From Micrococcaceae bacterium RIT 802 (GTDB lineage Bacteria; Actinomycetota; Actinomycetes; Actinomycetales; Micrococcaceae), in the NCBI GenBank assembly GCA_016892645.1, contig JAFEMX010000001.1, positions 186,001 through 250,000 on the forward strand: a stretch of 64,000 nucleotides of DNA, in the 5' to 3' direction. Of this stretch, positions 3,873 through 42,186 are shown piece after piece. Every line of letters begins with the position of its first letter. The stretch's first letter is position 1. The notes beneath the pieces are model-generated. The model saw only the letters and a program-made list of their open reading frames with translations, was not told the DNA's origin and made no database searches. The translations under genes were made by a program, and so were the position numbers.

Positions 3873-3888
3873 CCGGGTCGTCGCCGGA

Positions 3889-4374: not shown

Positions 4375-4379
4375 CCGCG

Positions 4380-4814: not shown

Positions 4815-4820
4815 GCCTAA

Positions 4821-4826
4821 ATACTA
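4821..4826 (-). promoter_or_regulatory. -10 box of leaderless promoter (SUKH-like gene)
   Basis: TAGTAT on the minus strand, followed by six bases and then the ATG at 4814. The spacing places the transcription start at the start codon. No convincing -35 was seen. Confidence 0.5.
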
Positions 4827-4838
4827 TCCGTCCCCGCG

Positions 4839-6248
4839 TCAGTAAACGTCCCGCGCCGCCAGGGCCAGCCACAATTGGACCCGGTCCGGGGTGTTCGAGG
4901 GGTCGAACCCGCTCAGATCGGCGATCTGCTGCAGCCTGTAGCGCACCGTATTGCGATGAAGACCCAGATCCTCCGCCACCGTGCCCACACTGCCGTTGAG
5001 CTCCAGGAAGCGACGCAGGGTCACCATGAGCTCGGCGCCGTGCGCCGCATCGAAATCCGCGAGCGGCTCCAGGGCCTCGGCGGCCAGAGCCTGCAACGGC
5101 ACGTCGTGCGCGGCCAACAACAATGACGTCAGCGAGATCCGCGAGGGGTGGTTGACCAGCCCACCATGGCGCAATGCCTCCACCGCCTCGAAATAGCTCC
5201 AACGCAGTCCCGTGACCTGGGCGTAGGAACCCCCGTAGGAGACCCGCGCGGGTACCCCGGCTCCCGAGAGGTACGCCGCGAATTCGGCGGCGGCGGCTTC
5301 CCCGTCCCCGGCATCCAGGACCACGGCAAGCCGGTCCTCGACCATGGCCGAGACGCATTTCTCCCGGCCCGGCGGCAGCGGCAGCGTGGGGATGGACCTG
5401 GACGTGGGCCCGACCGGATCGACCAACAGGATCGTATGGGCGGCATTCGGGGAGATCCCCACCGATTGCAGGCGCAATGCCGCGTCCTGGCCCTCGATGA
5501 CCCCGCGGGTGAGATCCGTCAGGACCTGGCCGCTGACCGTCCTCCGCGATTCGCGCAGCCGGGCGCGGTTGGCCAATTCGACGCTGATCAGCGATTGGGC
5601 ATATTCGACCAACCCGCCGCCCGCATCCGTCCCCTCCACAAAGAGGGTGCAGCGGTCCTGCAGGCCGGTGGGGATGGGTACGGTCAACCATCCCTCGGCG
5701 GCCGGGGCCGGGCCGTGGATCCGCGCCCCGTACTGGCTCAGCGACACCGGGCGCTGCAACTGGGCGCCCAATTCGCGCAGCAACCCATGCAGCCCTCCGC
5801 CACCGAGCAGGGCAGAAGCGAGCCGCTGGTGTCCCTTGAGCAGGCGCTCCATCCGGGCCACATTGTCCGCGGCCAGCTCCTCTGCCACGATCCGGGTGAT
5901 GGCCACGAATGGCGTCTCATAGGGCACCTCGAACAGGGGGAGCCCGACCTCTCCGGCACGGCGGACGACGGCGGCGGGCACTTTCGCATGCGTCAGCCCG
6001 GTCCCATAGCCCAAGGCCAGCACGCCGGCCCGGATGGCATGGTCAACGAACCCGGTCTGGGTGGCCACGGTCTTCTGCCGTACCCCCGTGGTCAACAACA
6101 CCTCTCCGCCGGCCAGGAAAGGGGTGGGGTCGGCCAGTTCCGTGACCGCCGCCCAGGAGATGGGTGCATCCCCTGCATCATCGGGATCGGTCAACGCGGT
6201 GAGCCGCAGGGAAGGAGTAGCCAGGAGTCCGGAAAGGGTCATCGCCAT
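4839..6248 (-). CDS. PucR-family transcriptional regulator
   Basis: About 469 residues. The N-terminal part (LTALTDPDDAGDAPISWAAV, then GGEVLLTTG) is the PucR sensory domain. A middle GGDEF-like region follows, and the C-terminus holds the helix-turn-helix with the family signature DLGLHRNTVRYRLQQI. Three ATGs lie close together (6257, 6248, 6242). The one at 6248 is chosen because a TAGGAT -10 box lies seven bases before it, which would make the 6257 ATG untranscribed. It is divergent from the NSS transporter, 122 bases away. PucR proteins often activate amino-acid, GABA or purine catabolic genes, and the neighbouring NSS-gabT genes are the natural target. Confidence 0.88.
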   Translation of the reverse strand: MAMTLSGLLATPSLRLTALTDPDDAGDAPISWAAVTELADPTPFLAGGEVLLTTGVRQKTVATQTGFVDHAIRAGVLALGYGTGLTHAKVPAAVVRRAGEVGLPLFEVPYETPFVAITRIVAEELAADNVARMERLLKGHQRLASALLGGGGLHGLLRELGAQLQRPVSLSQYGARIHGPAPAAEGWLTVPIPTGLQDRCTLFVEGTDAGGGLVEYAQSLISVELANRARLRESRRTVSGQVLTDLTRGVIEGQDAALRLQSVGISPNAAHTILLVDPVGPTSRSIPTLPLPPGREKCVSAMVEDRLAVVLDAGDGEAAAAEFAAYLSGAGVPARVSYGGSYAQVTGLRWSYFEAVEALRHGGLVNHPSRISLTSLLLAAHDVPLQALAAEALEPLADFDAAHGAELMVTLRRFLELNGSVGTVAEDLGLHRNTVRYRLQQIADLSGFDPSNTPDRVQLWLALAARDVY

Positions 6249-6255
6249 GGAAGGC

Positions 6256-6261
6256 ATCCTA
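6256..6261 (-). promoter_or_regulatory. -10 box of leaderless promoter (pucR-type gene)
   Basis: TAGGAT on the minus strand, seven bases before the ATG at 6248; it decides the start of the PucR-family gene. No clear -35 was seen. Confidence 0.45.
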
Positions 6262-6334
6262 CCCGGCGGCTGTGCATCGGCCCCATGGACGTCGCCATGA
6301 TTGGATGAAGTGACGAACGCGCCGCTCGTGGTCT

Positions 6335-6363
6335 TTGTGACGTGTCCAACACCCGTCTACGGT
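6335..6363 (+). promoter_or_regulatory. promoter of NSS transporter (leaderless)
   Basis: TTGTGA (6335-6340) and TACGGT (6358-6363) are separated by 17 bases, and the ATG follows seven bases later. This fits a sigma-A-type promoter with transcription starting at or next to the start codon. Confidence 0.45.
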
Positions 6364-6370
6364 ATAGGGC

Positions 6371-7957
6371 ATGACCACTCCACCGCAGGGCGGGGCCGCG
6401 ACAGCCCCGACCCTTAAACGGGAAACCTTCTCATCCCGCAAACTGTTCATCCTCTCCGCGATCGGATCAGCCGTCGGGCTGGGAAACATCTGGCGTTTCC
6501 CCTACGTGGCCTATGACAATGGCGGCGGCGCGTTCCTGATCCCCTACCTCTGTGCCCTGCTGACAGCCGGCATCCCGCTGCTGTTCCTGGATTACTCGAT
6601 CGGACACAAGTTCCGTGGTTCGGCGCCGTTGGCCTACCGCCGCATGCACCGCGCCGCCGAGCCTTTGGGCTGGTGGCAGGTCCTGGTCTGTTTCATCATC
6701 GCCATCTACTACGCGGTGATCATCGCCTGGGCCGCCATGTACACCTACTTCTCCTTCACGAAGGCCTGGGGCGACAAGCCCGGGGACTTCCTGATGAAGG
6801 ACTTCCTGAAGGTGGCCGAGGCGCCGACCCTGGGCTTCGACTACGTCTCGGGTGTCTTCTGGCCCCTGCTGGTGACATGGGTCGTCGTCATCGCCATCAT
6901 GGTCGCCGGAGTGAACAAGGGCATCTCCCGGGCGAACGCGGTGTTCCTGCCGCTGCTCGTCGTCATGTTCATCCTGCTGGTCGTGGCCTCGCTCTTCCTG
7001 CCGGGCGCCGCCGAAGGGCTGAACGCCTTCTTCACGCCGAACTGGGAAGCCCTCGGCGACCCGGGGGTCTGGGCCGCCGCCTATGGGCACATCTTCTTCT
7101 CGCTCTCCGTGGCGTTCGGCATCATGATCACCTACTCCTCCTACCTCAAGCGCAAGACCGACCTGACCGGTTCCGGCATGGTCGTCGGCTTCGCGAACTC
7201 GGCTTTTGAGATCCTCGCGGGCATCGGCGTCTTCGCCGCCCTGGGCTTCATGGCCCAGGCCTCCGGCGGGGACATCACCGAGGTGGTCGATGCCGGCATC
7301 GGCCTGGCCTTCGTGGCCTTCCCGACCATCGTGTCCGAGGCCCCCGTCGGCGCATTGCTCGGCGTGTTGTTCTTCGGCTCGCTGGTCTTCGCCGGCATCA
7401 CCTCGCTGATCTCCATCCTCGAGGTCATCGTCGCGGCCATCCAGGACAAGATGGGCTGGCCCCGGGTGAAGTCGGCCCTGGCCGTCTCGGTCCCCGTGGG
7501 CCTGATCTCCATCGTGCTCTTCCCGACCACCACCGGGCTGTACCTTCTCGATACCTTCGATGCCTTCGTGAACAGCTTCGGCATCATGCTCGGCGCACTG
7601 GTCGCCGTCATCGTCGTGGCGTGGTTCCTGCGCAAGCTTCCGCTGCTCTCGCGGCACCTGAACCGGTTCGCGAGCATCAAGATGAAGAACGTCTGGATGG
7701 TCCTGGTCGCCGTGGTCGCCCCGCTGGCCCTGGGATACATGCTGATCAACGAGTTCATCACCAAGATCACGACCCCGTACGAGGACTACCCCGTGTGGTT
7801 CCTGGGCGTCTTTGGTTGGGGCATGGCCGGCGCCCTGGTGGTGGTCGCCGTCATCCTCACGTTCATCCCCTGGAGCCGCAACTCCAAGGCCAACCACGAT
7901 CCCGAGTACGACGCCGTCAAATCGGCGGAAGACGCAGAAGAAGGGGCACTCCGATGA
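6371..7957 (+). CDS. sodium:neurotransmitter symporter (NSS) family transporter
   Basis: 528-residue polytopic membrane protein. The first helix carries the NSS hallmark SAVGLGNIWRFPYVAYDNGG (sodium and substrate site), and about 12 membrane segments follow. NSS proteins import amino acids or related compounds with sodium. The stop overlaps the start of a 46-residue membrane peptide (ATGA), the arrangement known for the corynebacterial methionine/alanine system MetP-MetS. gabT downstream and the divergent PucR regulator suggest that the substrate here is GABA or another omega-amino acid, which is inference only. Confidence 0.92.
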   Translation: MTTPPQGGAATAPTLKRETFSSRKLFILSAIGSAVGLGNIWRFPYVAYDNGGGAFLIPYLCALLTAGIPLLFLDYSIGHKFRGSAPLAYRRMHRAAEPLGWWQVLVCFIIAIYYAVIIAWAAMYTYFSFTKAWGDKPGDFLMKDFLKVAEAPTLGFDYVSGVFWPLLVTWVVVIAIMVAGVNKGISRANAVFLPLLVVMFILLVVASLFLPGAAEGLNAFFTPNWEALGDPGVWAAAYGHIFFSLSVAFGIMITYSSYLKRKTDLTGSGMVVGFANSAFEILAGIGVFAALGFMAQASGGDITEVVDAGIGLAFVAFPTIVSEAPVGALLGVLFFGSLVFAGITSLISILEVIVAAIQDKMGWPRVKSALAVSVPVGLISIVLFPTTTGLYLLDTFDAFVNSFGIMLGALVAVIVVAWFLRKLPLLSRHLNRFASIKMKNVWMVLVAVVAPLALGYMLINEFITKITTPYEDYPVWFLGVFGWGMAGALVVVAVILTFIPWSRNSKANHDPEYDAVKSAEDAEEGALR

Positions 7958-8094
7958 CACCCATCGCGATCACCATGATGATCATTGCCATCCTCACCGT
8001 CTGGGGCGGCCTGGCCCTGGCCCTGATCAACCTGTCCCGGCACCCGGAGGAGCCGGAGGACGAGCTGCCCGAGGTCGTCACCCAGGACGCCTAG
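7954..8094 (+). CDS. small NSS-associated membrane peptide (MetS-like)
   Basis: 46 residues. The first 27 or so form one hydrophobic helix (MMIIAILTVWGGLALALINL), followed by a short acidic tail (PEEPEDELPE). It overlaps the transporter stop by four bases, so it is translationally coupled. Small one-helix partners of this size (MetS in Corynebacterium) are required by some NSS transporters. A strong terminator hairpin follows 22 bases after the stop, closing the two-gene operon. Confidence 0.8.
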   Translation: MTPIAITMMIIAILTVWGGLALALINLSRHPEEPEDELPEVVTQDA

Positions 8095-8116
8095 TCCCGA
8101 CCGGCATCCAGCGCTG

Positions 8117-8146
8117 CGGCGGCCCCACCTGCGGGTGGGGCCGCCG
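8117..8146 (+). terminator. hairpin terminator after NSS operon
   Basis: A perfect 13-bp stem (CGGCGGCCCCACC / GGTGGGGCCGCCG) with a 4-base loop, followed by a weak T-rich stretch (TTGTG). It separates the transporter pair from gabT. Confidence 0.75.
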
Positions 8147-8290
8147 TTGTGCTGTGCGGATGCATAGCGCCCGGGACGGGACGCTGTGCCAAGCACCCTA
8201 GCGTCCGCGGCGAGGCGAACCGTAGGCTCGAAGGCAACGCATGGCGTCCGGTTGAGCGGCGCCAGGACAGCAACCAGGAAGGAATCCGCC

Positions 8291-9631
8291 GTGGAGATCC
8301 AGTACCGGCTCGAACAGAAGCGCAACATTATCGGGGCGTTCCCCGGCCCCCACTCCCAGGCCCTGGCCGAACGCCGCTCCGCCGCGGTGGCCGCAGGCGT
8401 CGCCTCATCCGTACCCGTCTTCGCAGCCGACGCCGACGGAGGCGTCATCGTGGACGTCGACGGCAACACGTTCACCGACCTGGGCTCCGGCATCGCCGTC
8501 ACCACGGTGGGCGCCTCCAACGCGAAGGTGGCCGCCGCGGTCAGCGAGCAGACCGCACGTTTCAACCACACCTGCTTCATGATCACCCCCTACGAGGGCT
8601 ACGTGGAGCTGGCCGAGAAGTTGGCCGACCTCACCCCCGGCGAGCACGCCAAGAAGAGCGTGTTCTTCAACTCCGGCGCCGAGGCCGTCGAGAACGCGGT
8701 CAAGGTGGCTCGGGTTGCGACCGGGCGGACGGCCGTCGTCGCGTTCGACCACGCTTACCATGGGCGCACTAACCTCACCATGGGCCTCACCGCTAAGGCC
8801 GCCCCCTACAAGCGCGGTTTCGGTCCGTTGGCATCGGAGATCTACCGGATGCCGATGAGCTACCCGTTCCGTGAGGAGACCCCGAACATCTCCGGCAAGG
8901 AAGCGGCCGAGCGCGCGATCCTCTCCATGGAGAAGCAGATCGGTGGCGACCAGATCGCCGCGATCATCATCGAGCCCATCCAGGGCGAGGGCGGATTCAT
9001 CGTCCCCGCGGAGGGGTTCCTGCCCCGCATCGCCGAATGGGCGAAGGAACAGGGCATCGTCTTCATCGCCGACGAGGTGCAGTCCGGGTTCTGCCGGACC
9101 GGGGCCTGGTTCGCCGTGGACCACGAAGGCGTGGTTCCCGACATCATCACCCTGGCCAAGGGGATTGCCGGCGGCCTGCCCCTGTCCGGGATCGTCGGGC
9201 GGGCCGAACTGCTCGACGCCGTCCACCCCGGGGGTCTGGGTGGGACGTACGGCGGCAACCCGGTAGCCGTCGCCGCCGGATTGGCCGCCGTGGACTACAT
9301 GGCCGAAGCCGACCTCAACGCCCGCGCCCGGGTCATCGAGGAGGCGTTCTATGCGCGCCTGCGGCCACTGCAGCAGGAACTGCCGGCCATCGGCGACTTG
9401 CGGGGCCGCGGTGCCATGCTGGCCATCGAGTTCGTCAAGGCCGGAGGCAAGGAACCGGACGCCGAGCTGACCAAGAAGATCGCCGCGGACTGCCTGGCGT
9501 CCGGGGTCATCATCCTCACCTGCGGAACCTACGGCAACGTGGTGCGGCTCTTGCCACCGCTGGTCATCTCCGATGAACTCCTGGCCGACGCGTTTGACGT
9601 CCTCGAGGAAGCCATCCGCACGAACGCCTGA
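8291..9631 (+). CDS. gabT: 4-aminobutyrate aminotransferase
   Basis: 446-residue class III PLP aminotransferase. NSGAEAVENAVKVAR (near residue 125), ADEVQSGFCRTG (near 255) and the PLP lysine in LAKGIAGGLPLSG (near 290) are all intact. It transfers the amino group of GABA to 2-oxoglutarate, giving succinic semialdehyde. The GTG at 8291 has a strong ribosome site (AGGAAGGAA) seven bases upstream; the longer open frame from 8186 has no such site. The gabD partner is not in the window. Related 5-aminovalerate or beta-alanine transaminases cannot be excluded. Confidence 0.9.
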   Translation: MEIQYRLEQKRNIIGAFPGPHSQALAERRSAAVAAGVASSVPVFAADADGGVIVDVDGNTFTDLGSGIAVTTVGASNAKVAAAVSEQTARFNHTCFMITPYEGYVELAEKLADLTPGEHAKKSVFFNSGAEAVENAVKVARVATGRTAVVAFDHAYHGRTNLTMGLTAKAAPYKRGFGPLASEIYRMPMSYPFREETPNISGKEAAERAILSMEKQIGGDQIAAIIIEPIQGEGGFIVPAEGFLPRIAEWAKEQGIVFIADEVQSGFCRTGAWFAVDHEGVVPDIITLAKGIAGGLPLSGIVGRAELLDAVHPGGLGGTYGGNPVAVAAGLAAVDYMAEADLNARARVIEEAFYARLRPLQQELPAIGDLRGRGAMLAIEFVKAGGKEPDAELTKKIAADCLASGVIILTCGTYGNVVRLLPPLVISDELLADAFDVLEEAIRTNA

Positions 9632-9645
9632 TCACCGGCATCCGT

Positions 9646-9688
9646 GACGGCGGTGCCCCGGCCCTGCCCGGGTCGGGGCACCGCCGTC
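9646..9688. terminator. bidirectional terminator gabT / rarD
   Basis: A perfect 15-bp stem (GACGGCGGTGCCCCG and its complement) with a 13-base loop, between the converging gabT and rarD genes. Confidence 0.75.
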
Positions 9689-9713
9689 GTCGCATCCAGG
9701 CGCGGACCGGACC

Positions 9714-10724
9714 CTAGCTGTTTGGCTCCGAGGCGGCCTTCGCGTAGCTGGTGGCGGATTTCGCGGCGGGTACGGTGGCCTGCGTGCGGGGCCGCCGACG
9801 CAGCATATCGACGGCCAGCAGGATGATCGCGACCCACACGAAGGCGAAACCGGCCAGGCGCTCGGGTGGCATGGCCTCATGGAAGACGGCCACCGCGATG
9901 ATGAATTGCATGACCGGGGTCAGGAACTGCAGGGTTCCGACGGTGCTCAACGGCAACCGTCGGGCGGCGGCCCCGAAGAGCAACAGCGGGACCGCGGTGA
10001 CGATGCCGCTGGCTGCCATGAGCCAGAAGTGACCCGCACCGTGGGTGAGCACCGTGGCCTGGCCGTGGGACATCAGCCAGCCCATGTAGACGAGGGCCGG
10101 AACCGTCAGGAAGGCAGTTTCCACGGTCAGGCTGGTCACCGCGGTCGCGGTGCGCCCCACCCGGTTCTTCACGAACCCGTACAGGCCGAACGAGAAGGCC
10201 AGCGTCAGCGCGATCACCGGCACCGAACCGTAGGCAAACGTCAACACCAGCACCGCGGCCAGGCCGAATCCCAGCGCGGTCCATTGGAGCCGGGAGAGCT
10301 TCTCCTTCAGGAAGACCACGCCCAGCGCAGCAGACACCAGCGGGTTGATGAAGTAGCCCAGGGATGCCTCCACGGTGTGGCCGTGGAGCACAGCGTACGC
10401 GTAGGTGACCCAGTTGACGGTGATGAGCACCGCCGCAAGCGCCAGGCGCAACATGGCGGCGCGATCACGGATCAGTGTCCGCAGGTCGCCCCACGCCCGG
10501 GTGACGCCGATGAGGATGATGCAGAAAACCAGGCTGAACACGATGCGGTTCGCCACGATCTCGGTCGCCGAAGCGACCGAGATGGTCATGAAGTACAACG
10601 GCAGGATCCCCCACAGGCCGTAGGCGCCGAGACCCTGCAGCAGGCCGGCACGGCTGGGGGCCGGGGCTCCGTTCACGTGGCGTGTCGTGACAGGGGAGGT
10701 GGGGGTATCGCGGGGCATACCCAT
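9714..10724 (-). CDS. rarD: EamA/RarD family membrane transporter
   Basis: 336 residues with about ten membrane helices. The first is GLGAYGLWGILPLYF, typical of the RarD branch of the drug/metabolite transporter superfamily, and RLQWTALGFGLAAVLVLTFA and YGFVKNRVG further support RarD. The substrate is not established. Two Met codons (1 and 3) could serve as the start. It ends in the shared terminator with gabT; 22 bases separate its start from the stop of eccC, so it may be the last gene of the secretion operon transcript, although its function seems unrelated. Confidence 0.85.
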   Translation of the reverse strand: MGMPRDTPTSPVTTRHVNGAPAPSRAGLLQGLGAYGLWGILPLYFMTISVASATEIVANRIVFSLVFCIILIGVTRAWGDLRTLIRDRAAMLRLALAAVLITVNWVTYAYAVLHGHTVEASLGYFINPLVSAALGVVFLKEKLSRLQWTALGFGLAAVLVLTFAYGSVPVIALTLAFSFGLYGFVKNRVGRTATAVTSLTVETAFLTVPALVYMGWLMSHGQATVLTHGAGHFWLMAASGIVTAVPLLLFGAAARRLPLSTVGTLQFLTPVMQFIIAVAVFHEAMPPERLAGFAFVWVAIILLAVDMLRRRPRTQATVPAAKSATSYAKAASEPNS

Positions 10725-32268: not shown

Positions 32269-32367
32269 CCACCGATGATCCCACCTGGCACCGACACCGT
32301 GCACACCAGCGGGCCGCGACGATGACCTCCGGTTGCGCCCGACCGGGTCCGCGGCCGGGGGCGGCGG

Positions 32368-32373
32368 TAGAGT
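32368..32373 (+). promoter_or_regulatory. -10 box of leaderless promoter (CBS gene)
   Basis: TAGAGT, seven bases before the ATG at 32381; there is no ribosome site in the gap (CGTCCCC). Confidence 0.5.
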
Positions 32374-32380
32374 CGTCCCC

Positions 32381-33757
32381 ATGAAATACGCTGAATCCGT
32401 CCTTGAACTCATCGGCAACACCCCGCTGGTCAGGCTCTCGAAGGTGACCGAGGGCATCCGCGCCACCGTCCTGGTGAAGCTCGAATACCTGAACCCCGGG
32501 GGGTCCATCAAGGACCGCATCGCGCTGAAGATGATCGAGGAGGCGGAGAAGTCCGGCGAGCTGCTGCCCGGCGGCACCGTCGTCGAGCCGACCTCGGGCA
32601 ACACCGGCGTCGGCCTGGCCCTGGTCGCCCAGGCCAAGGGCTACAAGACCATCTTCGTCACCCCGGACAAGGTCGGGGAGGAAAAGCGCGACGTGCTGCG
32701 CGCCTACGGAGCCGAGGTCGTGGTCACCCCGACCTCGGTGGCCCCCGATTCCCCCGAGTCCTACTACGGGGTCTCCGACCGGCTGGTCCGCGAGATCCCC
32801 GGCGCCTACAAGCCCGACCAGTTCAACAACCCGGCGGCACCCGAGAGCCACTACGGCTCCACCGGCCCCGAGATCTGGAACGACACCGACGGCCGGCTGA
32901 CCCATGTGATCATCGGGGCCGGCACCGGCGGGACGATCACCGGCACCGGCCGCTACCTCAAGGAGGTCTCCGCCGACCGCGCCTCCGGGCCCGTCAAGGT
33001 CATCGGCGCCGACCCGGACGGCTCCGTCTACTCCGGCGGCAGCGGACGTCCCTACTTCGTCGAGGGCGTCGGCGAGGACATGTGGCCGGGCAACTACGAC
33101 CCCGCGGTCCCCGACGAGGTCATCGCCGTCACCGACGCCGACTCGTTCGCCATGACCCGCCGGCTGGCCCGCGAGGAGGGCCTGCTCGTCGGCGGCTCCT
33201 CCGGCATGGCCGTCGTCGCGGCCCTGCGTGCGGCGAAGGACCTGGACGAGGACGACGTCGTGGTGGTCATCCTGCCCGACGGCGGCCGCGGCTACCTGGG
33301 CAAGATCTTCAACGACACCTGGATGAAGTCCTACGGCTTCATCGCCGACGGCGACGAGGGGACCGTCGCCGACGTGGTGGCCGCCAAGGACGGCGGCCTC
33401 CCGGAACTGGTCCACACCCACCCGGGCGAATCGGTGCGCGATGTCATCGACATCATGAACGAGTACGGCGTCTCCGTGCTCCCGGTGCTCTCCGCCGAGC
33501 CGCCGGTGCGCATGGGCGAGGTCGTCGGCGCCGTCGACGAACGCACCCTGACCGCCCGCCTCTTCGCCGGCGAGGCCTCCCTCACGCAGGCCGTCGAGGA
33601 GCACGTGGGCGAGCCCATGCCGCTGATCGGCGCGCAGGAGTCCATCGCCGCGGCCCGGACCAAGCTGCAGGACGCCGACGCCCTGCTGGTCACCGTCGAC
33701 GGCGCCCCCGTCGGCGTGCTGACCCGCCACGACCTGCTGAACCACCTGACCCACTGA
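32381..33757 (+). CDS. cystathionine beta-synthase
   Basis: 458 residues. The PLP domain carries NPGGSIKDR (PLP Lys44) and the phosphate loop TSGNTGVGLA (about 70-80), and two CBS motifs occupy roughly residues 335-458. The heme-binding domain of animal enzymes is absent. It condenses homocysteine and serine to cystathionine. TAGAGT seven bases upstream and the absence of a ribosome site suggest a leaderless message. The next gene follows after 32 bases, so the two steps of reverse transsulfuration appear to be encoded together. Confidence 0.95.
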   Translation: MKYAESVLELIGNTPLVRLSKVTEGIRATVLVKLEYLNPGGSIKDRIALKMIEEAEKSGELLPGGTVVEPTSGNTGVGLALVAQAKGYKTIFVTPDKVGEEKRDVLRAYGAEVVVTPTSVAPDSPESYYGVSDRLVREIPGAYKPDQFNNPAAPESHYGSTGPEIWNDTDGRLTHVIIGAGTGGTITGTGRYLKEVSADRASGPVKVIGADPDGSVYSGGSGRPYFVEGVGEDMWPGNYDPAVPDEVIAVTDADSFAMTRRLAREEGLLVGGSSGMAVVAALRAAKDLDEDDVVVVILPDGGRGYLGKIFNDTWMKSYGFIADGDEGTVADVVAAKDGGLPELVHTHPGESVRDVIDIMNEYGVSVLPVLSAEPPVRMGEVVGAVDERTLTARLFAGEASLTQAVEEHVGEPMPLIGAQESIAAARTKLQDADALLVTVDGAPVGVLTRHDLLNHLTH

Positions 33758-33789
33758 CGCAACCACACCCAGCGAAAGGGAGACCACCC

Positions 33790-34947
33790 ATGAGCACCCA
33801 GGGAACCGGCTTCAACACCCGCGCCATCCACGCCGGACAGGCGTTCGAACCCCGCACCGGCGCCGTCGTGCCGCCCGTGCACTTCTCCACCACCTACGCC
33901 CAGGACGGCATCGGCGGGCTGCGCAACGGCTACGAATACGGCCGCGGCACCAACCCCACCCGCGACTCGCTGCAGGAACAGCTCGCCGCGGTGGAGAACG
34001 GCACCCACGCCTTCACGTTCGCCTCCGGCCTGGCCGCCGAGGACTCGCTGATCCGCGCGCTGATGCGCCCGGGCGACCACATCGTGCTCGGCAACGACGC
34101 CTACGGCGGCACCTACCGGCTCATCTCGCGGATCTTCGGCGACTGGGGCATCGGCAACACCCCGGTCGACATGGCCGACCCGCAGGCCCTGGCCGCCGCG
34201 ATCGCCGCCGCGCAGACGCGCCTGGTCTGGCTCGAGACCCCGTCGAACCCGATGATGAAGATCACCGACATCGCAGCCGTCGCGAAGGCCACGCACGACG
34301 CCGGGGCCCTCCTGGTCGTGGACAACACCTTTGCCACCCCCTACCTCCAGCAGCCGCTGGACCTGGGCGCCGACATCGTGGTCCACTCCACAACCAAGTA
34401 CATCGGCGGGCACTCCGACGTCGTCGGCGGCGCCGTCATCGTCAAGGACGCAGACCTGGCCGAGAAGATCGGGTTCCTGCAGTTCGCCGCCGGTGCCGTC
34501 AACGGCCCCATGGACGCCTTCCTGACCACCCGCGGGCTCAAGACCCTCGGCGTGCGCATGGACCGGCACTCCGAGAACGCCCAAAAGGTGGCCGAATGGC
34601 TGCAGGGCCGCCCGGAGGTCGAAAAGGTCCTCTACCCGGGACTGCCCGACCACCCGGGGCACGAACTGGCCAAGAAGCAGATGAAGCGCTTCGGCGGCAT
34701 GGTCTCCGTCCAGTTCACCGGCGGGGAGGCAGCCGCCCGCACGATCGCCGAATCCACCCGGGTCTTCACCCTGGCCGAATCGCTCGGCGGCATCGAGTCG
34801 CTGATGAACTACCCCTCGGAGATGACCCACGCCTCGGTGAAGGGCACCGAGCTGGCCGTCCCGGAGAACCTGCTGCGCCTCTCCTGCGGCATCGAGGACG
34901 CCGAGGACCTGATCGCCGACCTCGAGCAGGCGTTCACCCGCCTGTAG
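33790..34947 (+). CDS. cystathionine gamma-synthase/gamma-lyase (PLP-dependent)
   Basis: 385 residues of the Cys/Met metabolism PLP family. The PLP lysine lies in HSTTKYIGGHSD (near 203), and YEYGRGTNPTR and SLGGIESLMNYPSEMTH are present. It can make cysteine from cystathionine or, as synthase, join O-acyl-homoserine with cysteine. The CBS neighbour favours the lyase (reverse transsulfuration) role, though the two activities are hard to separate by sequence. Ribosome site GAAAGGGAG is nine bases before ATG 33790. The operon ends at a strong hairpin. Confidence 0.9.
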   Translation: MSTQGTGFNTRAIHAGQAFEPRTGAVVPPVHFSTTYAQDGIGGLRNGYEYGRGTNPTRDSLQEQLAAVENGTHAFTFASGLAAEDSLIRALMRPGDHIVLGNDAYGGTYRLISRIFGDWGIGNTPVDMADPQALAAAIAAAQTRLVWLETPSNPMMKITDIAAVAKATHDAGALLVVDNTFATPYLQQPLDLGADIVVHSTTKYIGGHSDVVGGAVIVKDADLAEKIGFLQFAAGAVNGPMDAFLTTRGLKTLGVRMDRHSENAQKVAEWLQGRPEVEKVLYPGLPDHPGHELAKKQMKRFGGMVSVQFTGGEAAARTIAESTRVFTLAESLGGIESLMNYPSEMTHASVKGTELAVPENLLRLSCGIEDAEDLIADLEQAFTRL

Positions 34948-35046: not shown

Positions 35047-36549
35047 CTACAGGCCCAGCGTCGCGAACTTGGCGGCCCGGCGCTGCCGCCGCGCCCCGGC
35101 GGGCACGGCGGCAGCGACGGAGAGCTCGTACTCGATCGCCACCGCCAGGTCCGCGCAGAATCCGCGGGGATCCACCGCGGCCTCGCGCTCCTCGGGCACG
35201 ATGTGGTCGACCAGCCCGATACGGTGCAGCGATGCCACGTTGACGCCCTGTTCGGCGGCCAGCTGCGGCGCATGGGCGGCGTCCCGGTACACGATGGCGC
35301 TGGCACCCTCCGGCGGCAGCGGCGACAGCCAGGCATTCTCGGCGGCGACGACCCGGTCGGCGGGCAGCAGTGCCAGCGCCCCACCGCCGGAGCCCTGCCC
35401 GAGCAGGACCGCGACGCTGGGGGCCGCCAACCCGATCAGGCTGTTCAGCGACCGGGCGATCTCCCCGGCCAAGCCGCCTTCCTCGGCCTCGGGGGAGAGG
35501 TCGGCGCCCGCGGTGTCGATGACGGTCAGCAGGGGCAGCTGGAGCTCCTCGGCCAGCTGCATGCCGCGCCGTGCCTCGCGCAGCGACCCCGGCCCCATCT
35601 CGCGGCCGCCATGCCGGGGCCGCTGGTGGCCCAACACGATGCAGGACTGCGTGCCGAAGCGGGCCAGGGCCAGTCCGAGCCCGGGATCGTTCTCGCCCTG
35701 CCCGGTCCCGTTCAGCGGCAACGCGTCATCCGCGCCGGCAGCCAACAGCCACCGCAGGTCCGGGCGGCGGGGCAGGCGCGAGATCTCGATGGACTCCCAG
35801 GCGTCCCGTGCCCCGGGACGCGCGCTCGCGCTGGCCGGGACCGGGAGGTTCCCCGCCGGCTGGGCGGGCAGCAGGATCCGCAGGGCCCGGTCGATGATGG
35901 CGGGGAGGTCCTCCGGCGGGACGACGGCGTCGATGAGCCCGCACCGGTAGAGGTTCTCGGCGGTCTGCACGCCTTCGGGGAACGGCGTGCCATGCAGGGT
36001 CTCGTACACCCGCGGACCCAGGAATCCGAGTAGGGCCCCGGGCTCGGCGACCGTCATGTGCCCCAGCGAACCCCACGAGGCCATCACGCCGCCGGTGGTC
36101 GGATGGCGCAGGTAGACCAGGTACGGCAGGCCCTTCTCCTTGTGGCGGCGCACCGCGTCAGTGATCGCCACCATCGACAGGAACGCGAGGGTCCCCTCCT
36201 GCATGCGGGTCCCGCCGGAGGCCGGTCCGGCCAGCAGGGGCAGCCCCTCGGCGGTGGCGCGTTCGACGGCCTCCGTGATCCGCTGGGCCGCCGCGCGGCC
36301 GATCGAACCGGCGAGGAAGGTGAACTCGGAGACGATCACCGCCACCCGGCGGCCCCGGATCCGGCCCTCCCCGGTGAGCACCGATTCGTCATGGCCGCTC
36401 TTCTCGCGTGCGGCTTCCAGATCGGCGGAGTAATTCTCCCCGGCCCGCGGCTGCTCGGCGGGGGCATCCCAGGAACGGAACGACCCCTCGTCCAGCACGA
36501 TGTTCAACAGGGCGGTCGCCGTCAGCCGCCGCGTGGTCGTCGGTGTCAT
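35047..36549 (-). CDS. fused AccD-AccA-type carboxyltransferase
   Basis: 500 residues. The first half is AccD-like (GRRVAVIVSEFTFLAGSIG, LLAGPASGGTRMQEG, HPTTGGVMASWGSLGH) and the second AccA-like (CIVLGHQ, TVIDTAGADLSPEAEEGG, LLGQGSGGGALALLPADRV). The N-terminal Cys4 zinc ribbon of E. coli AccD is missing. No biotin carboxylase or biotin carrier gene is near. It lies downstream of a CoA transferase and a MatC-like carrier in one operon. It could be the carboxyltransferase of acetyl-CoA carboxylase, or act like the related MdcD/E subunits that decarboxylate malonyl thioesters; context favours the latter as a hypothesis. Confidence 0.8.
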   Translation of the reverse strand: MTPTTTRRLTATALLNIVLDEGSFRSWDAPAEQPRAGENYSADLEAAREKSGHDESVLTGEGRIRGRRVAVIVSEFTFLAGSIGRAAAQRITEAVERATAEGLPLLAGPASGGTRMQEGTLAFLSMVAITDAVRRHKEKGLPYLVYLRHPTTGGVMASWGSLGHMTVAEPGALLGFLGPRVYETLHGTPFPEGVQTAENLYRCGLIDAVVPPEDLPAIIDRALRILLPAQPAGNLPVPASASARPGARDAWESIEISRLPRRPDLRWLLAAGADDALPLNGTGQGENDPGLGLALARFGTQSCIVLGHQRPRHGGREMGPGSLREARRGMQLAEELQLPLLTVIDTAGADLSPEAEEGGLAGEIARSLNSLIGLAAPSVAVLLGQGSGGGALALLPADRVVAAENAWLSPLPPEGASAIVYRDAAHAPQLAAEQGVNVASLHRIGLVDHIVPEEREAAVDPRGFCADLAVAIEYELSVAAAVPAGARRQRRAAKFATLGL

Positions 36550-36551
36550 GG

Positions 36552-37790
36552 CTACTCCCCGGATCCGGTGGTGGCATGGTCCGGGGCGGCCAGCCAGGAC
36601 CGGATGGATGCCGCGTCGGCGTCGAGTCCGGGGGGCGCCGTGTGGGCGGTGCGGGTGCGCTCCTCGGCGGTCTCGGCGTCGAAGAAGCGCAGCGGCGGGC
36701 CGGGCAGCGTGATGTTGCCGAGCACCGGATGCTCCACGTCCAGGAGCAGCCCCTGGGACTTCACCTGGTCCCAGGCGTAGACCTCGTCGAGGGTGCGGAC
36801 CTTGCCGGCGGGTACCCCCGCTTCGTTGAGCTTGTCCAGCAGGGCCGCCGGTTCGTAGGCGCTGAAGGCATCCTCGATGACGCCGATGAGCTTGTCCCGG
36901 TGCGCCACGCGGTCAGCGTTGGTGGCGAAGTCCGGGTCCGCGGCGTCGATGCCGAAGGCGCCGGTCAATGCCTTCCAGAGCTTCTCGCTGCCCACGCTGA
37001 TCTGGACGTTGCCGCCACGGCAGGCGAACAAGCCGTACGGCGCGATCGAGGGGTGGTGGTTGCCCTGGGCCCGGGGGACCTCCCCGGCGACGGTGGCACG
37101 GGTGCCCTGGAACGCGTGGACCCCGACGACGGAGGCCAGCAGCGACGTGCGCACGACCTGGCCCCGTCCGGTCTTCTCGCGCTCGAGCAGGGCCGCCAGC
37201 ACGCCGTACGCCCCGTACATGCCCGAGAGCAGGTCGGAGATGGGCACGCCCACGCGCTGCGGGTCATCGGGCCCGGACCCGGTCAGCGACATCAGGCCGG
37301 CCTCGCCCTGGACGATCTGGTCGTAGCCGCTGCGCTTCGCCTCGGGCCCGTCATGGCCGAAGCCGGTGATGGACAGGATGACCAGCCGCGGGTTGATCCG
37401 CTGCAGCTCCTCCATCGAGAAGCCCAGCCGGTCCAGCACCCCGGTCCGGAAATTCTCCAGCAGTGCATCGGCGCGGCGAACGAGGGAGACGAGCGTTTCG
37501 CGTCCCTCATCGGACTTCAGGTCCAGGGCGATGGATTCCTTGTTGCGGTTGCACGAGAGGTAATAGGTGGCCTGCCGGTCGTCCTCCGGCCCGACGAAGG
37601 GCGGGCCCCAGCTGCGGGTGTCGTCACCGGTGCCGGGGGTCTCCACCTTGATGACGCGGGCGCCGAGGTCCCCGAGCATCATGCCGGCGTGCGGGCCGGC
37701 CAGGGCGCGGGTCAGGTCAAGGACGGTGTAGCCGGTCAGGGGACCGGCGGACGGGGAGGATACCGGGGACGATGCAGTCGTGGGGTTCAC
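36552..37790 (-). CDS. CaiB/BaiF-type (family III) CoA transferase
   Basis: 412 residues from GTG 37790, behind GAAAGGAG; the frame open to 37853 is non-coding. Family segments: LDLTRALAGPHAGMMLGDLG, GYDQIVQGEAGLMSLTG and GVPISDLLSGMYGAYGVLAA. At the position of the usual catalytic aspartate (SMQD in formyl-CoA transferase) this protein reads SLLA (Ala219), so the standard anhydride mechanism looks impaired or relocated. It ends two bases before the carboxyltransferase start, indicating tight coupling. It would activate a carboxylic acid taken up by the neighbouring carrier. Confidence 0.85.
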   Translation of the reverse strand: MNPTTASSPVSSPSAGPLTGYTVLDLTRALAGPHAGMMLGDLGARVIKVETPGTGDDTRSWGPPFVGPEDDRQATYYLSCNRNKESIALDLKSDEGRETLVSLVRRADALLENFRTGVLDRLGFSMEELQRINPRLVILSITGFGHDGPEAKRSGYDQIVQGEAGLMSLTGSGPDDPQRVGVPISDLLSGMYGAYGVLAALLEREKTGRGQVVRTSLLASVVGVHAFQGTRATVAGEVPRAQGNHHPSIAPYGLFACRGGNVQISVGSEKLWKALTGAFGIDAADPDFATNADRVAHRDKLIGVIEDAFSAYEPAALLDKLNEAGVPAGKVRTLDEVYAWDQVKSQGLLLDVEHPVLGNITLPGPPLRFFDAETAEERTRTAHTAPPGLDADAASIRSWLAAPDHATTGSGE

Positions 37791-37829
37791 GAGGGCTCCT
37801 TTCGGGGCGGGGAAGAGCGGGGAAACAGG

Positions 37830-37860
37830 CCCGGGAGGGCCCCTGGTGGGCACTCCCGGG
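37830..37860 (-). terminator. hairpin between carrier and CoA transferase genes
   Basis: CCCGGGAG/CTCCCGGG, an 8-bp stem with a 15-base loop, in the gap between two genes of the same strand. It lacks a T run, so it may attenuate or process the message rather than end it. Confidence 0.4.
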
Positions 37861-37877
37861 CAGCGAATCGCGGGTGG

Positions 37878-39242
37878 TCAGAGCCAGCCGGGCACGACGA
37901 GCGTCAGCCAGGCCAGCACCGGGCCGACCACGACCACGATGCCGCCGTAGCCGAGGATCTGCTTGTAGAACCTGTCGGCATCGATGCCCTCGGGCGCGTT
38001 GGCGAGCACCAGGGCACCGTTGGTGGAGAAAGGCGAGACGTCCACGATGGTCGAGGCGATCGCCAGGGCACACACCACACCGACGGCGCTGACGGCACCC
38101 GAATCCAGGAACGGGATGGCCAGCGGGATGAGGGCCGCCAGGATCGCCGTGGAGGAGGCGAAGGCGGAGACGACGGCACCGATGTAGCAGATCATCAGCG
38201 CGGCCAGCATCGGCATGCCCATCTGGGCGACGCCGTCGGAGACGTAGGTGATGGTGCCCGCTTCCTCCAGCACGCCGACGAAGGTCAGCATGCCGCAGAT
38301 CAGCAGCACGGTGGACCAGCTGATCTTGTTGACGGCGCCCTTCTGCGCCTGCGGGGACACCAGGGCGAGGATGACGGCGATGGTGATGGAAACGAATCCG
38401 ACGTCGACCTTGAAGCCCAGGGCCACGACGGCCAGGGCGATGAGGCCGATGACGGTGGCGACCTGCGGGAAGGTGACACGGTCCGAGGCGGAGCCCGAGG
38501 GGCCGTCGCCGGCGGGGTCGCGGGGCCCGTAGGTGCCGCTGCCGGCACCCTTGAAGTCGACGCCGGCGGCGCGGGAGCCGACCGACGCGCCCATGCGGGC
38601 CTCGGAGACGCTCTCGGCGAAGTGCGCGACCCGGCTGCCTGCCAGGGCCTTGCCGCCCAGGACGAAGAAGAGCACGACGGCGATGACGGTGTTGAAGATG
38701 AAGGAGGAGAGGAACAGCGCGGTGGGGCTGAAATCGAAGCCGGTGTCGGCGATGAGCCCGTTGACGATCACGCCGTAGACGGCGATGGGGGAGAACCCGC
38801 CGGCCTGGGCGCCGTGGACGATGAGCATGCCCATCATCAGCGGGTTGATCTTGTAGCGGGCGGCGAAGCCCAGGCCGATGGGGGCCATGATGGCCACGGC
38901 GGCCGGGCCGAGGGCGCCGACGGCGGTGATGACCGCGGTGATCGTGAACATCACCCAGGGGATCAGGGCGATCCGGTTGTCCACGAGTTTCACGGCCTTG
39001 CGGATCAACAGGTCGATGGTCCCGTTGCCCTGGGCGATGGCGAACAGATACGTCACCCCGACCAGCGTCAGGAACAGCCCGCCGGGGAACTGGGCGAGGA
39101 TGTCCTTGGTGTCCATCCCCAGGAAGAGCGCGCCGAGGACGAAGGCGCCGACGAAGGCGAGCGCGCCCATGTTGATGGGCAGGATCGTGGCCAGCAGGAA
39201 CATCACCGCCAACACGATGATTGAAAGGATCGGGGCAGACAT
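37878..39242 (-). CDS. MatC-like dicarboxylate carrier (SLC13/ion transporter superfamily)
   Basis: 454 residues, about 11-12 helices. The N-terminus FLLATILPINMGALAFVGAF, then FPGGLFLTLVGVTYLFAIAQ and NGTIDLLIRKAV, matches the MatC N-terminal domain known from the rhizobial malonate carrier. A hydrophilic loop near residues 210-255 divides the two halves. Expected substrates are malonate or related C3/C4 dicarboxylates. It is the first gene of the operon with the CoA transferase and carboxyltransferase, and divergent from the GntR regulator 145 bases away. Confidence 0.85.
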   Translation of the reverse strand: MSAPILSIIVLAVMFLLATILPINMGALAFVGAFVLGALFLGMDTKDILAQFPGGLFLTLVGVTYLFAIAQGNGTIDLLIRKAVKLVDNRIALIPWVMFTITAVITAVGALGPAAVAIMAPIGLGFAARYKINPLMMGMLIVHGAQAGGFSPIAVYGVIVNGLIADTGFDFSPTALFLSSFIFNTVIAVVLFFVLGGKALAGSRVAHFAESVSEARMGASVGSRAAGVDFKGAGSGTYGPRDPAGDGPSGSASDRVTFPQVATVIGLIALAVVALGFKVDVGFVSITIAVILALVSPQAQKGAVNKISWSTVLLICGMLTFVGVLEEAGTITYVSDGVAQMGMPMLAALMICYIGAVVSAFASSTAILAALIPLAIPFLDSGAVSAVGVVCALAIASTIVDVSPFSTNGALVLANAPEGIDADRFYKQILGYGGIVVVVGPVLAWLTLVVPGWL

Positions 39243-39387
39243 GGGATGGGCCTCCAGCGGGTCGGGGTGCGGTGCGGTGCGGTGTGTAGTGCGTCACTCT
39301 CAGTGGCCTAGCCTCCTAGACCCTCTGTCACTTTGTCAATAGGATGTCGTGTGTACTGTGAAGGGGAACACCACGAGGAGGTGCACC

Positions 39388-40089
39388 ATGCGGGACCCGG
39401 AGAAGGCAAGGACGTTGGGCAAGGTGGCGCGTCCGCGTCTCTACGAACAGCTCATGGAGCAGATCCTCGGCTACGTCGAATCCGAGCAGCTGGGGCCCGG
39501 GGACCGGCTCCCGGCCGAACGCGACCTGGCCGACCAGCTCGGGGTCTCCCGCGCCACGCTGGCCCAGGCCCTGGTCGCCCTCGAGGTGCTCGGGGTCATC
39601 GATGTCCAGCACGGCACGGGCGCCGTGCTGGTCTACCGTCCGAGCATGGCGGCGCTGTTGCGCAAGCTGAGGGAACACCAGAACCGCCTGCCGGAGATCG
39701 TCGAGGCGCGCAGCACCCTGGAGGTCAAGTTGGCGGCGTTGGCCGCGGAGCGACGCACGCCGGAGGACCTGGCGGCCATCGACGAGGCGTTGGCGGTGAT
39801 GGCCGACGAGATCGCCCGGGGCGACCGCGGGGTCCACGGCGACGAGCTGTTCCACCAGGCCATCACGGCGGCCGCCCATTCGGCGGTGCTGGCCCAGATG
39901 ATGGGCTTCATCGGGGAGATGATCCTGGAGACCCGCATCGAATCACTCGGCCAGCCCGGACGCCCCGAGGTCTCCCTGGCAGCGCACCGGGGCATCACCG
40001 AGGCCATCCGCGCCGGGGATCCGCAAGCCGCCGCCGCGGCCATGGGCGGGCACATCGACGTGGTCTCGGACGTGCCCCTGCTGCACTAG
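39388..40089 (+). CDS. GntR-family (FadR-type) regulator
   Basis: 233 residues. The winged helix carries RLPAERDLADQLGVSRATLAQALVAL in the GntR consensus, and the all-helical FCD ligand domain follows, with metal-site-like residues in DELFHQAI, AAHRGITEAI and MGGHIDVV. The start is ATG 39388 after GAGGAGG. It is divergent from the MatC-like carrier operon, so control of that operon by a carboxylate or CoA ligand is likely, as MatR controls matABC. The stop TAG shares the palindrome CTAG with the stop of the convergent amidohydrolase. Confidence 0.9.
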   Translation: MRDPEKARTLGKVARPRLYEQLMEQILGYVESEQLGPGDRLPAERDLADQLGVSRATLAQALVALEVLGVIDVQHGTGAVLVYRPSMAALLRKLREHQNRLPEIVEARSTLEVKLAALAAERRTPEDLAAIDEALAVMADEIARGDRGVHGDELFHQAITAAAHSAVLAQMMGFIGEMILETRIESLGQPGRPEVSLAAHRGITEAIRAGDPQAAAAAMGGHIDVVSDVPLLH

Positions 40090-41273
40090 GTGCGCGGCAG
40101 CTTGCGGTCCACGACGACCGGAAGGCGGGTGCCGGCGTCGTACTCCATCACCTGGCGGCCGCCGATGAACACGCGCAGGGCCCGCTGCATGACATCCAAC
40201 GGGTCCCCCGACCAGAGCACCAGGTCGGCGTCCTTGCCCGCTTCGATGGAGCCGATGCGGTGATCGAGCCCGAGCACCCGTGCCGGGTTGATGGTGATCG
40301 AGCGCAGGGCGGCCACGGGGTCCAGCCCCTCCTTCACGGCCAGCGTGCACTGGTGGACCAGGAAGTTGATCGGGATGACCGGGTGGTCGGTGATGATGGA
40401 GATCTCCACGCCGGCGTCGTGCAGCTTGCCGGGGTTGGCCAGCGAGCGGCCGCGCAGCTCGACCTTGGACTTGGTGGTGAACAACGGGCCGATGAGGACC
40501 GGGATGTTGCGCTCGGCGATCACGTCGGCGATCACGTGGGCCTCGGTGCCGTGGTCCAGGACCAGGTCGTAGCCGAACTCCTCGGCCAGGCGCAGGGCCG
40601 TGGCGACGTCGTCGGTGCGGTGGCAGTGCTGGCGCCACGGGATCTCGCGGCGCAACACCATCGCCAGGGCCTCCATGCGCGGGTCGATGGCGTCCGGGTC
40701 GGCCTTGGCCATGTAGTTCCGGGCCTCGATGAAGGCCTTGCGGATGACCATCGCGGTGCCCAGCCGGGTGGACGGCGTCTGCTTCTTCTCCCCGTAGATC
40801 CGCTTGGGATTCTCCCCCAGGGCGGACTTCAGGCCGCTGGGCGAGCGCAGGACCATCTCGTCGATGTAGCGCCCGTGCGTGTGGATGGCCACGGCGAGCC
40901 CGCCCACCGGATTTCCCGAACCGGGGTTGACGTTGACCGTCGTCACGCCCCCGGCCAGGGCCTCGTCGAAGCCCGGGTCGAAGGGGTCGACGGCGTCGAT
41001 GGCCCGCACGGCGGCCATGATCGGGTCGGTCATCTCGTTCACGTCCGCCGTCGATCCGGCCTCGCCCTCGGGGTGCATGCCCAGGTGCACGTGGGCGTCG
41101 ACGAAGCCGGGCAGCAGCCAGTGGCCGCCGCCGTCGAGGACCTGCGCGTCGGCGGGTGCCTGCACATCCGGCCCGCAGGCCTCGATCTTGCCGTCGCGGA
41201 CGATGACCGATCCGTCGTAGGGCTCGGACTCGATCGGGACGACGTGGACGTTGGTGATGGCCAGCAGACTCAT
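40086..41273 (-). CDS. amidohydrolase (imidazolonepropionase-like family)
   Basis: 395 residues. A composite beta-sandwich/TIM barrel is indicated by LPGFVDAHVHLG (metal HxH, about 56-60), DHGTEAH, the late metal Asp in ITDHPVIP, and the C-terminal GSIEAGKDADLVLWSGDPLD. These are signatures of metal-dependent amidohydrolases; the substrate is not apparent. The start is ATG 41273 with GAAAGGG nine bases upstream. Its only neighbours are the GntR regulator (convergent) and the aldo/keto reductase upstream on the same strand. Confidence 0.88.
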   Translation of the reverse strand: MSLLAITNVHVVPIESEPYDGSVIVRDGKIEACGPDVQAPADAQVLDGGGHWLLPGFVDAHVHLGMHPEGEAGSTADVNEMTDPIMAAVRAIDAVDPFDPGFDEALAGGVTTVNVNPGSGNPVGGLAVAIHTHGRYIDEMVLRSPSGLKSALGENPKRIYGEKKQTPSTRLGTAMVIRKAFIEARNYMAKADPDAIDPRMEALAMVLRREIPWRQHCHRTDDVATALRLAEEFGYDLVLDHGTEAHVIADVIAERNIPVLIGPLFTTKSKVELRGRSLANPGKLHDAGVEISIITDHPVIPINFLVHQCTLAVKEGLDPVAALRSITINPARVLGLDHRIGSIEAGKDADLVLWSGDPLDVMQRALRVFIGGRQVMEYDAGTRLPVVVDRKLPRT

Positions 41274-41361
41274 GATGGGAGCCCTTTCGGAGGATTTCAG
41301 TGGGTGACCCGAGCCTATCGCTGCGCGGTGACCCATCCCACATCGGCCGAGCCCGTGGGAA

Positions 41362-42186
41362 TCAGCCGTTGAACGTCTCCGGATCCGGGCCGGTGCGCTG
41401 GCCCCGGTCGAGCCCGTCGATCGCCGCGAGCTCGGCCGCCGAGAGGTCGAAATCGAAGACGTCCAGGTTTTCGCGGATGCGGCCCGGGGTGACGGACTTC
41501 GGGATGAGAATGCGTCCCTGCTGGAGGTGCCAGCGCAGCACGACTTGGGCCGGGGTCCGACCATGGGCCGTGGCGAGGCCCGCGATGACCGGGTCCGTGA
41601 GGACGGCGCCCTGGGCCAGGGGGCTCCAGGCCTCGGTGCGGATGCCGTGCTCCTCGTTGTAGGCCCGGATCGGGTGCTGCTGCAGGTAGGGGTGTAGTTC
41701 CACCTGGTTCACTGCCGGGACGATTCCGGATTCCCCGGCCAGGACCTCCAGCTGGGAGCCGGTGAAGTTGGAGACACCGATCGCGCGGACCCTGCCGTCG
41801 GACTGCAGGGCCTCCAGGGCGCGCCAGGTCTCGGCGTACCGTCCTTGCGCCGGGGCCGGCCAATGGATCAGCAGGAGGTCGACGTAGTCCAGGCCCAAGC
41901 GGTCCAGGCTCTGCTGGTAGGCCGGTTCGGCCCGGTCGGCGCCGTGGGCGTCGTTCCAGATCTTGGTCGTGATGAAGAGCTCGTCGCGGTCGATTCCGGA
42001 GGCCGCAACGGCGCGGCCGACGCCCTCCTCATTGCCATAGATGGCTGCCGTGTCGATGCTGCGGTAGCCCGCGACCAGGGCCTCGGCCACCGCGGCGGCA
42101 GCCTGGTCGTCGGGGACCTGGAAGACGCCGAATCCGAGCTGCGGGATGGAGGTTGCCTGGTTCAGGGAGATGTCGGGGATGTTCAT
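41362..42186 (-). CDS. aldo/keto reductase
   Basis: 274 residues, full-length AKR5-like 2,5-didehydrogluconate reductase type. The catalytic tetrad is visible as SIDTAAIYGNE (Asp, Tyr), ITTKIWND (Lys) and LLIHWPAP (His), with the NADPH-binding IPKSVTPGRIRENL near the C-terminus. It is a cytosolic NADPH-dependent carbonyl reductase of unknown substrate. ATG 42186 follows GAAAGGAA. Only 46 bases separate it from the upstream MFS gene on the same strand, so the MarR-controlled promoter may serve both. Confidence 0.93.
   Translation of the reverse strand: MNIPDISLNQATSIPQLGFGVFQVPDDQAAAAVAEALVAGYRSIDTAAIYGNEEGVGRAVAASGIDRDELFITTKIWNDAHGADRAEPAYQQSLDRLGLDYVDLLLIHWPAPAQGRYAETWRALEALQSDGRVRAIGVSNFTGSQLEVLAGESGIVPAVNQVELHPYLQQHPIRAYNEEHGIRTEAWSPLAQGAVLTDPVIAGLATAHGRTPAQVVLRWHLQQGRILIPKSVTPGRIRENLDVFDFDLSAAELAAIDGLDRGQRTGPDPETFNG

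Follow-up and report, generated by a model that had tools for sequence, protein, structure and literature searches.

A 64,000-nucleotide stretch of the genome of Micrococcaceae bacterium RIT 802 (hereafter the window) carries an operon for a MatC-like carrier, a CaiB-type CoA transferase (hereafter CaiB) and a fused AccD-AccA-like carboxyltransferase (AccDA), with the gene for a GntR regulator divergent from it (Table 1). We consider it probable that this cassette is a malonate-utilisation operon, in which the CoA transferase feeds AccDA acting as a biotin-independent malonyl-CoA decarboxylase. MatC would import malonate, as its family and its partnership with MatB suggest; CaiB would pass CoA from acetyl-CoA or succinyl-CoA to malonate, giving malonyl-CoA without ATP; and AccDA would convert malonyl-CoA to acetyl-CoA and CO2 without biotin, biotin carboxyl carrier protein (BCCP) or biotin carboxylase. 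The acetyl-CoA produced could be the next CoA donor, like the acetyl-acyl carrier protein (ACP) of malonate decarboxylase (Mdc), and the GntR protein would control the operon, possibly as a repressor, at the motif TGGCYNAGCCW. The first-pass annotation had named the four genes, all of which were confirmed at their positions.

The link to malonate comes from loci in which MatB stands in the place of CaiB. In three genomes (G280, G356 and G373), MatB and an AccDA of the divergent class described below are found with orthologous GntR (51-53%) and MatC (51-53%) proteins, and a fourth (G204) has the order MatC-MatB-AccDA; the orthologous GntR gene adjoins in three of these four MatB-type loci, whose AccDA proteins are 32-37% identical to that of the window. 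The AMP-forming ligase after MatC scored 981 bits to 3nyq, named 'Malonyl-CoA Ligase'. MatC orthologues adjoin MatB in other actinobacteria, and the window carrier matched MatC_N (PF07158) over all 149 positions (193 bits, 4e-57), with CitMHS in addition. Since the MatB-type loci share the regulator, the carrier and a divergent AccDA, CaiB occupies the place of MatB, and AccDA that of MatA. Furthermore, all of nine genomes with a divergent AccDA encode a close CaiB (at least 62%), a MatB (at least 53%) or both: CaiB only in G000, G057, G283, G354, G327 and G278, MatB only in G280 and G150, and both in G196. Three of the nine, with MatC-AccDA lacking an adjacent CaiB, hold CaiB elsewhere. Thus, judged from sequence, CaiB and MatB look like interchangeable partners, with AccDA where MatA would be expected. 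The operon itself has no MatB, and the best MatB-like protein of the window genome reached 219 bits (40% identity). A genome search with PF05292 (the MatA family) gave no match, but the control search was equally silent, and thus we do not count this as evidence. In Streptomyces coelicolor, SCO2443 and SCO2445 have been linked to the mat genes, the latter being also connected with 'acetyl CoA carboxylase' (PMC5447737, PMC4367926); SCO2443, SCO2444 and SCO2445 would be MatC, MatB and AccDA, respectively.

The motif TGGCYNAGCCW, allowing one mismatch at most, was present in 59 of 60 distinct homologous GntR-matC gaps, compared with 3.9% of length-matched control stretches, and the MatB-type gaps contain a perfect palindrome, TGGCTNAGCCA. 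The site in Table 1 is the sole match in the window; by pattern alone such a match is not significant over 64 kb (0.55 expected), and its weight rests on position and conservation. We propose the motif as the putative operator of the regulator, which has GntR and FCD domains and is conserved, in divergent orientation, along with the cassette. Previously, it was suggested that a CoA transferase replaces MatB and an AccDA-like protein replaces MatA; the MatB-type loci with the same regulator and carrier support this, and the malonate assignment gains independent support from the true MatB and divergent AccDA at such loci together with the shared operator.

For a count of linkage, approximately 17 kb was fetched around each of 34 AccDA homologues. 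GntR is divergent from MatC-CaiB-AccDA at 23 of these loci, in varied surroundings, and CaiB-AccDA occurs without MatC at ten more. Dozens of genomes share this gene order, in varied surroundings and with 67-86% protein identity within the same and neighbouring families, and its conservation is far beyond chance. The intact cassette occurs in many Micrococcaceae; among named genomes, it was detected in Arthrobacter, Pseudarthrobacter, Paeniglutamicibacter, Glutamicibacter and Tersicoccus, as well as in Cryobacterium, a metagenome-assembled genome of Microbacteriaceae and a Mycobacterium. Nocardioides and Rhodococcus have a solitary AccDA. In Nocardiopsidaceae, the order is MatC-AccDA-CaiB. Many of the Nocardioides and Rhodococcus loci (L118-L162) have a divergent-class AccDA without MatC or CaiB in surroundings that are often housekeeping-like, and MatB was present in both mycobacterial-type genomes checked among those with a solitary AccDA.

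CaiB-AccDA pairs were also observed in a second, amidase-type context (L044, L068, L069, L071, L072 and L073, also L070 and L076). One form of it has an amidase (PF01425), DUF5058 and partner membrane proteins, an M20 amidohydrolase and a regulator like Lrp with a double helix-turn-helix, and the other has an SSF symporter and an amidase. These gene contents suggest that malonate or a related acid may be released from an amide or conjugate. At L075 (positions 2903-10611), the pair lies amid a fumarylacetoacetate hydrolase-like protein, an FAD monooxygenase, DUF3500 and a bicupin, and the surroundings resemble a cluster for the breakdown of aromatic compounds or flavonoids.

Both carboxyltransferase halves are present in the window AccDA (PF01039, 178 bits; PF03255, 153 bits). 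As had been noted from the sequence, the N-terminal zinc ribbon is gone: the AccD half aligns only from residue 50-60 or so of AccD chains. The protein is under the cut-offs of all accD and accA models (accD, 171 of 317 bits; accA, 121-154 of 300-357 bits) and also those of TIGR03133 (MdcD; 48 bits, cut-off 278) and TIGR03134 (MdcE; 25 bits, cut-off 237). When its profile was compared with solved structures, MdcE was not returned and MdcD was returned weakly (E 2.5e-7). An AF2 model predicts a two-domain carboxyltransferase fold (pLDDT 83.7, pTM 0.86), and a fold search with this model placed transcarboxylase 12S and PccB-type subunits on top; thus the fold cannot tell a carboxylase from a decarboxylase, and the predicted structure by itself can decide neither the direction of the reaction nor the cofactor. 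A relative with this fold, MdcD-MdcE, decarboxylates malonyl-CoA without biotin (PMC5534430), and therefore a carboxyltransferase fold is capable of the reaction.

A comparison of fused AccDA proteins separates two classes. In a sample of 247 actinomycete genomes, 135 encode proteins with the ACCA domain, which mostly belong to the divergent class and are annotated as acetyl-CoA carboxylase subunits; the divergent class is spread over much of the Actinomycetes. The domain scores were either 325-404 or 105-181 bits, with none between among the matches listed. At all 29 of the high-scoring (canonical) loci examined, BCCP and biotin carboxylase genes lie within 1.5 kb, whereas neither was found at any of 133 divergent-class or MatC loci (within flanks of about 4-8 kb, as far as the contig extends), which represent about 120 distinct places and include three with the carrier alone. 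All 21 readable canonical open reading frames have the zinc ribbon, as against none of 105 divergent ones. Likewise, canonical proteins retain the AccA loop with the motif NFGMPxPEGYRKA, in some cases with slight variation, whereas the group with CaiB or alone has a shorter GPxSLREARRGM-type segment in its place, and the MatB group has a short PAGYRxA segment there. One protein of 34% identity (L077) keeps the cysteine pair and has BCCP directly downstream, and thus serves as an internal positive control. The canonical loci L213-L241, from other actinobacteria, each encode a compact acetyl-CoA carboxylase.

Members of the divergent class are also found in mycobacteria. In G196, G150 and G213 (L243, L244 and L245), a protein of 490-493 amino acids without the zinc ribbon is 57-58% identical to the window AccDA and is encoded divergently from an enoyl-CoA hydratase gene (echA6-like), near response-regulator/kinase or ATPase genes. 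Rv0904c and Rv0905 (EchA6) lie in one cluster (PMC5501465), and thus by synteny we read the three loci as accD3. Identity and synteny together place AccD3 in the divergent class. Pull-downs with AccD3 found no bound partner, 'raising doubts' about its role as a carboxyltransferase subunit (PMC4347857); M. smegmatis does not need it for fatty acid synthesis, and its function is listed as awaiting study (PMC5311964). The annotation of mycobacterial accD3-type genes as acetyl-CoA carboxylase subunits is therefore doubtful. The earlier suggestion that a biotin-independent malonyl-CoA decarboxylase is conceivable is supported by these pull-downs and by the loss of linked partners (about 120 loci, compared with 29 of 29 canonical ones that keep them), although the chemistry is inferred.

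The CoA transferase has the domain PF02515 (CoA_transf_3, 392 bits). The Asp of its GYDQI motif, which we take to be the catalytic residue, is invariant in 17 homologues. The nearest solved structures are 4ed9 and succinate-hydroxymethylglutarate CoA-transferase. Against the named equivalogs (succinate-glutarate, oxalate and mesaconate), all scores were under the cut-off, the best being 327 of 750 bits.

One rival explanation is that AccDA is the essential acetyl-CoA carboxylase of the cell and its neighbours are incidental, as domain annotation would have it; we find this hardly credible. The first-pass annotation had allowed for the fused protein being the only such carboxyltransferase and had proposed a genome search for another. 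This search found two further carboxyltransferases (649 and 523 bits to PF01039), one PccB-like and the other close to a biotinyl-domain protein. In the family, only 32 of 149 genomes carry this AccDA (at least 51% identity), a PccB-type match (about 23-28% identity) occurs across all 149, and the genomes lacking AccDA give only such matches. AccDA is thus accessory and not the sole acetyl-CoA carboxylase, and its linkage to MatC and CaiB is conserved despite varied surroundings. AccDA might still depend on biotin, as a carboxyltransferase that draws on an unlinked AccA3-type subunit (biotin carboxylase/BCCP) for malonyl-CoA synthesis or transcarboxylation. The carboxyltransferase fold is kept, unlinked biotinyl-domain proteins exist in the genome, and relatives are annotated as acetyl-CoA carboxylase; however, we consider this quite improbable because of the 133 loci devoid of linked biotin genes, the loss of the zinc ribbon and the long AccA loop, the failure of AccD3 to bind a biotin subunit, and the little sense that a carboxylase would make within an operon for malonate uptake. 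As initially noted, biotin partners are not nearby: the 10 biotinyl/lipoyl domains found in the genome all lie outside the window. No stand-alone BCCP was found in the genome, the best match to TIGR00531 being a domain of a protein of about 1,170 amino acids (E 7e-7), and over the 149 genomes stand-alone BCCP and this AccDA were not associated (7 of 32 with AccDA, compared with 18 of 117 without, p=0.43).

A further alternative keeps the same pathway logic for another short diacid, such as methylmalonate, or for a malonyl amide or conjugate that is first hydrolysed; AccDA would then act as decarboxylase of the corresponding acyl-CoA. CaiB-AccDA also occurs without MatC beside amidase, M20 amidohydrolase and DUF5058/SSF-type membrane proteins, which indicates that the input compound varies, and the nearest named CoA transferases use other acids (succinate/glutarate, oxalate and mesaconate). 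However, MatC pairs with MatB, whose solved relative is named a malonyl-CoA ligase, and the amidase and M20 contexts fit malonate release as well; we regard this alternative as rather unlikely. Several points weigh against the malonate decarboxylase proposal. The MatC and MatB families may handle related diacids too, for example methylmalonate. The window AccDA is far nearer to AccD and AccA (171 and 154 bits) than to MdcD and MdcE (48 and 25 bits), and the unlinked AccA3-type subunit could be used even where biotin genes are not linked. In a three-group tree of AccDA the groups are monophyletic, but such a tree cannot show the MatB-linked and CaiB-linked proteins as sisters, and thus we do not claim this relation. 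In Streptomyces albus, feeding malonate gave no increase in flavonoid output (PMC5447737), a result that is ambiguous, and the literature searched yielded no assay of either AccDA or the CoA transferase.

Table 1. Features of the proposed malonate cassette (positions in the window)
Feature	Position	Strand	Basis and proposed role
Fused AccD-AccA-like protein, 500 aa	35047..36549	-	PF01039 + PF03255; proposed biotin-independent malonyl-CoA decarboxylase
CaiB/BaiF (class III) CoA transferase	36552..37790	-	PF02515; GTG start; proposed malonate CoA-transferase
MatC-type malonate/dicarboxylate carrier	37878..39242	-	MatC_N PF07158 + CitMHS
Proposed GntR operator TGGCCTAGCCT, consensus TGGCYNAGCCW	39304..39314	+	matC-gntR gap
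GntR/FCD-family regulator, divergent from matC	39388..40089	+	PF00392 + PF07729

The likely starts of two genes were revised: that of the CoA transferase from 37853 to the GTG at 37790 (ribosome-binding site AAAGGAG) and that of GntR from 39349 to the ATG at 39388 (ribosome-binding site GAGGAGG). The CoA transferase and AccDA genes are 2 bp apart, and promoter and terminator scans found nothing. An amidohydrolase-family gene (40086-41372, minus strand) outside the conserved cassette is convergent with the GntR gene, with a 4-bp overlap at the end of the latter. Genes like those of cystathionine beta-synthase and cystathionine gamma-synthase/lyase (32333-34947, plus strand) flank the cassette, and such neighbours recur at L049, L052 and L053.

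On balance, we lean towards extending the proposal to the whole divergent class, including AccD3 and the Streptomyces mat-cluster protein: these may be biotin-independent acyl-CoA decarboxylases derived from acetyl-CoA carboxylase, as one family or two convergent ones, fed by MatB or by a new malonate CoA-transferase of the CaiB type, the latter giving a counterpart of malonate decarboxylase that is based on CoA and needs no ATP. Among actinobacterial carboxyltransferases, some of group IV have already been described as malonyl-CoA decarboxylases of malonate assimilation (PMC6491548, 2019); there, a Saccharopolyspora protein is called an orthologue of S. coelicolor 'MatA', the sole citation is to Rhizobium work, and an assay is not reported. 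In the literature searched, which leaves out most subscription journals, we found neither the CaiB-linked cassette nor the operator, and nothing on the division of fused AccDA proteins into two classes with and without biotin partners or on the connection to AccD3. If the proteins of the divergent class decarboxylate malonyl-CoA without biotin, metabolic models run this reaction in the wrong direction, the mycobacterial gene for AccD3 gains a testable function, as does a large family annotated 'acetyl-CoA carboxylase', and actinobacteria own a malonate pathway that works without ATP and whose type we did not find described in the literature searched. This would also be relevant to the supply of malonyl-CoA for polyketide engineering in Streptomyces.

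The cassette resembles matABC/matR of Rhizobium trifolii in its MatC-type carrier, its GntR regulator and the proposed route from malonate via malonyl-CoA to acetyl-CoA. However, the Rhizobium system has the MatB ligase where a CaiB-type CoA transferase is found here, and its MatA, a member of the MCD family, where the carboxyltransferase-type AccDA is found. The matC-matB-AccDA genes of Streptomyces (SCO2443-2445 region) share the regulator and carrier families, the operator and a divergent AccDA in third place, but use the ATP-dependent ligase MatB, and their AccDA is just 32-37% identical. Mycobacterial AccD3 (Rv0904c family) is solitary beside an echA6-like gene, with MatC and CaiB not adjacent, although it belongs to the same AccDA class by its 57-58% identity, its lack of the zinc ribbon and of any biotin partner found. 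Finally, Mdc uses an ACP thioester, MdcA (TIGR01110, not found in the genome) and separate MdcD and MdcE, where we propose free CoA esters, a class III CoA transferase and one fused chain; nevertheless, both would share an AccD/AccA-like fold, decarboxylation without biotin, and a transferase that recycles the acetyl thioester.

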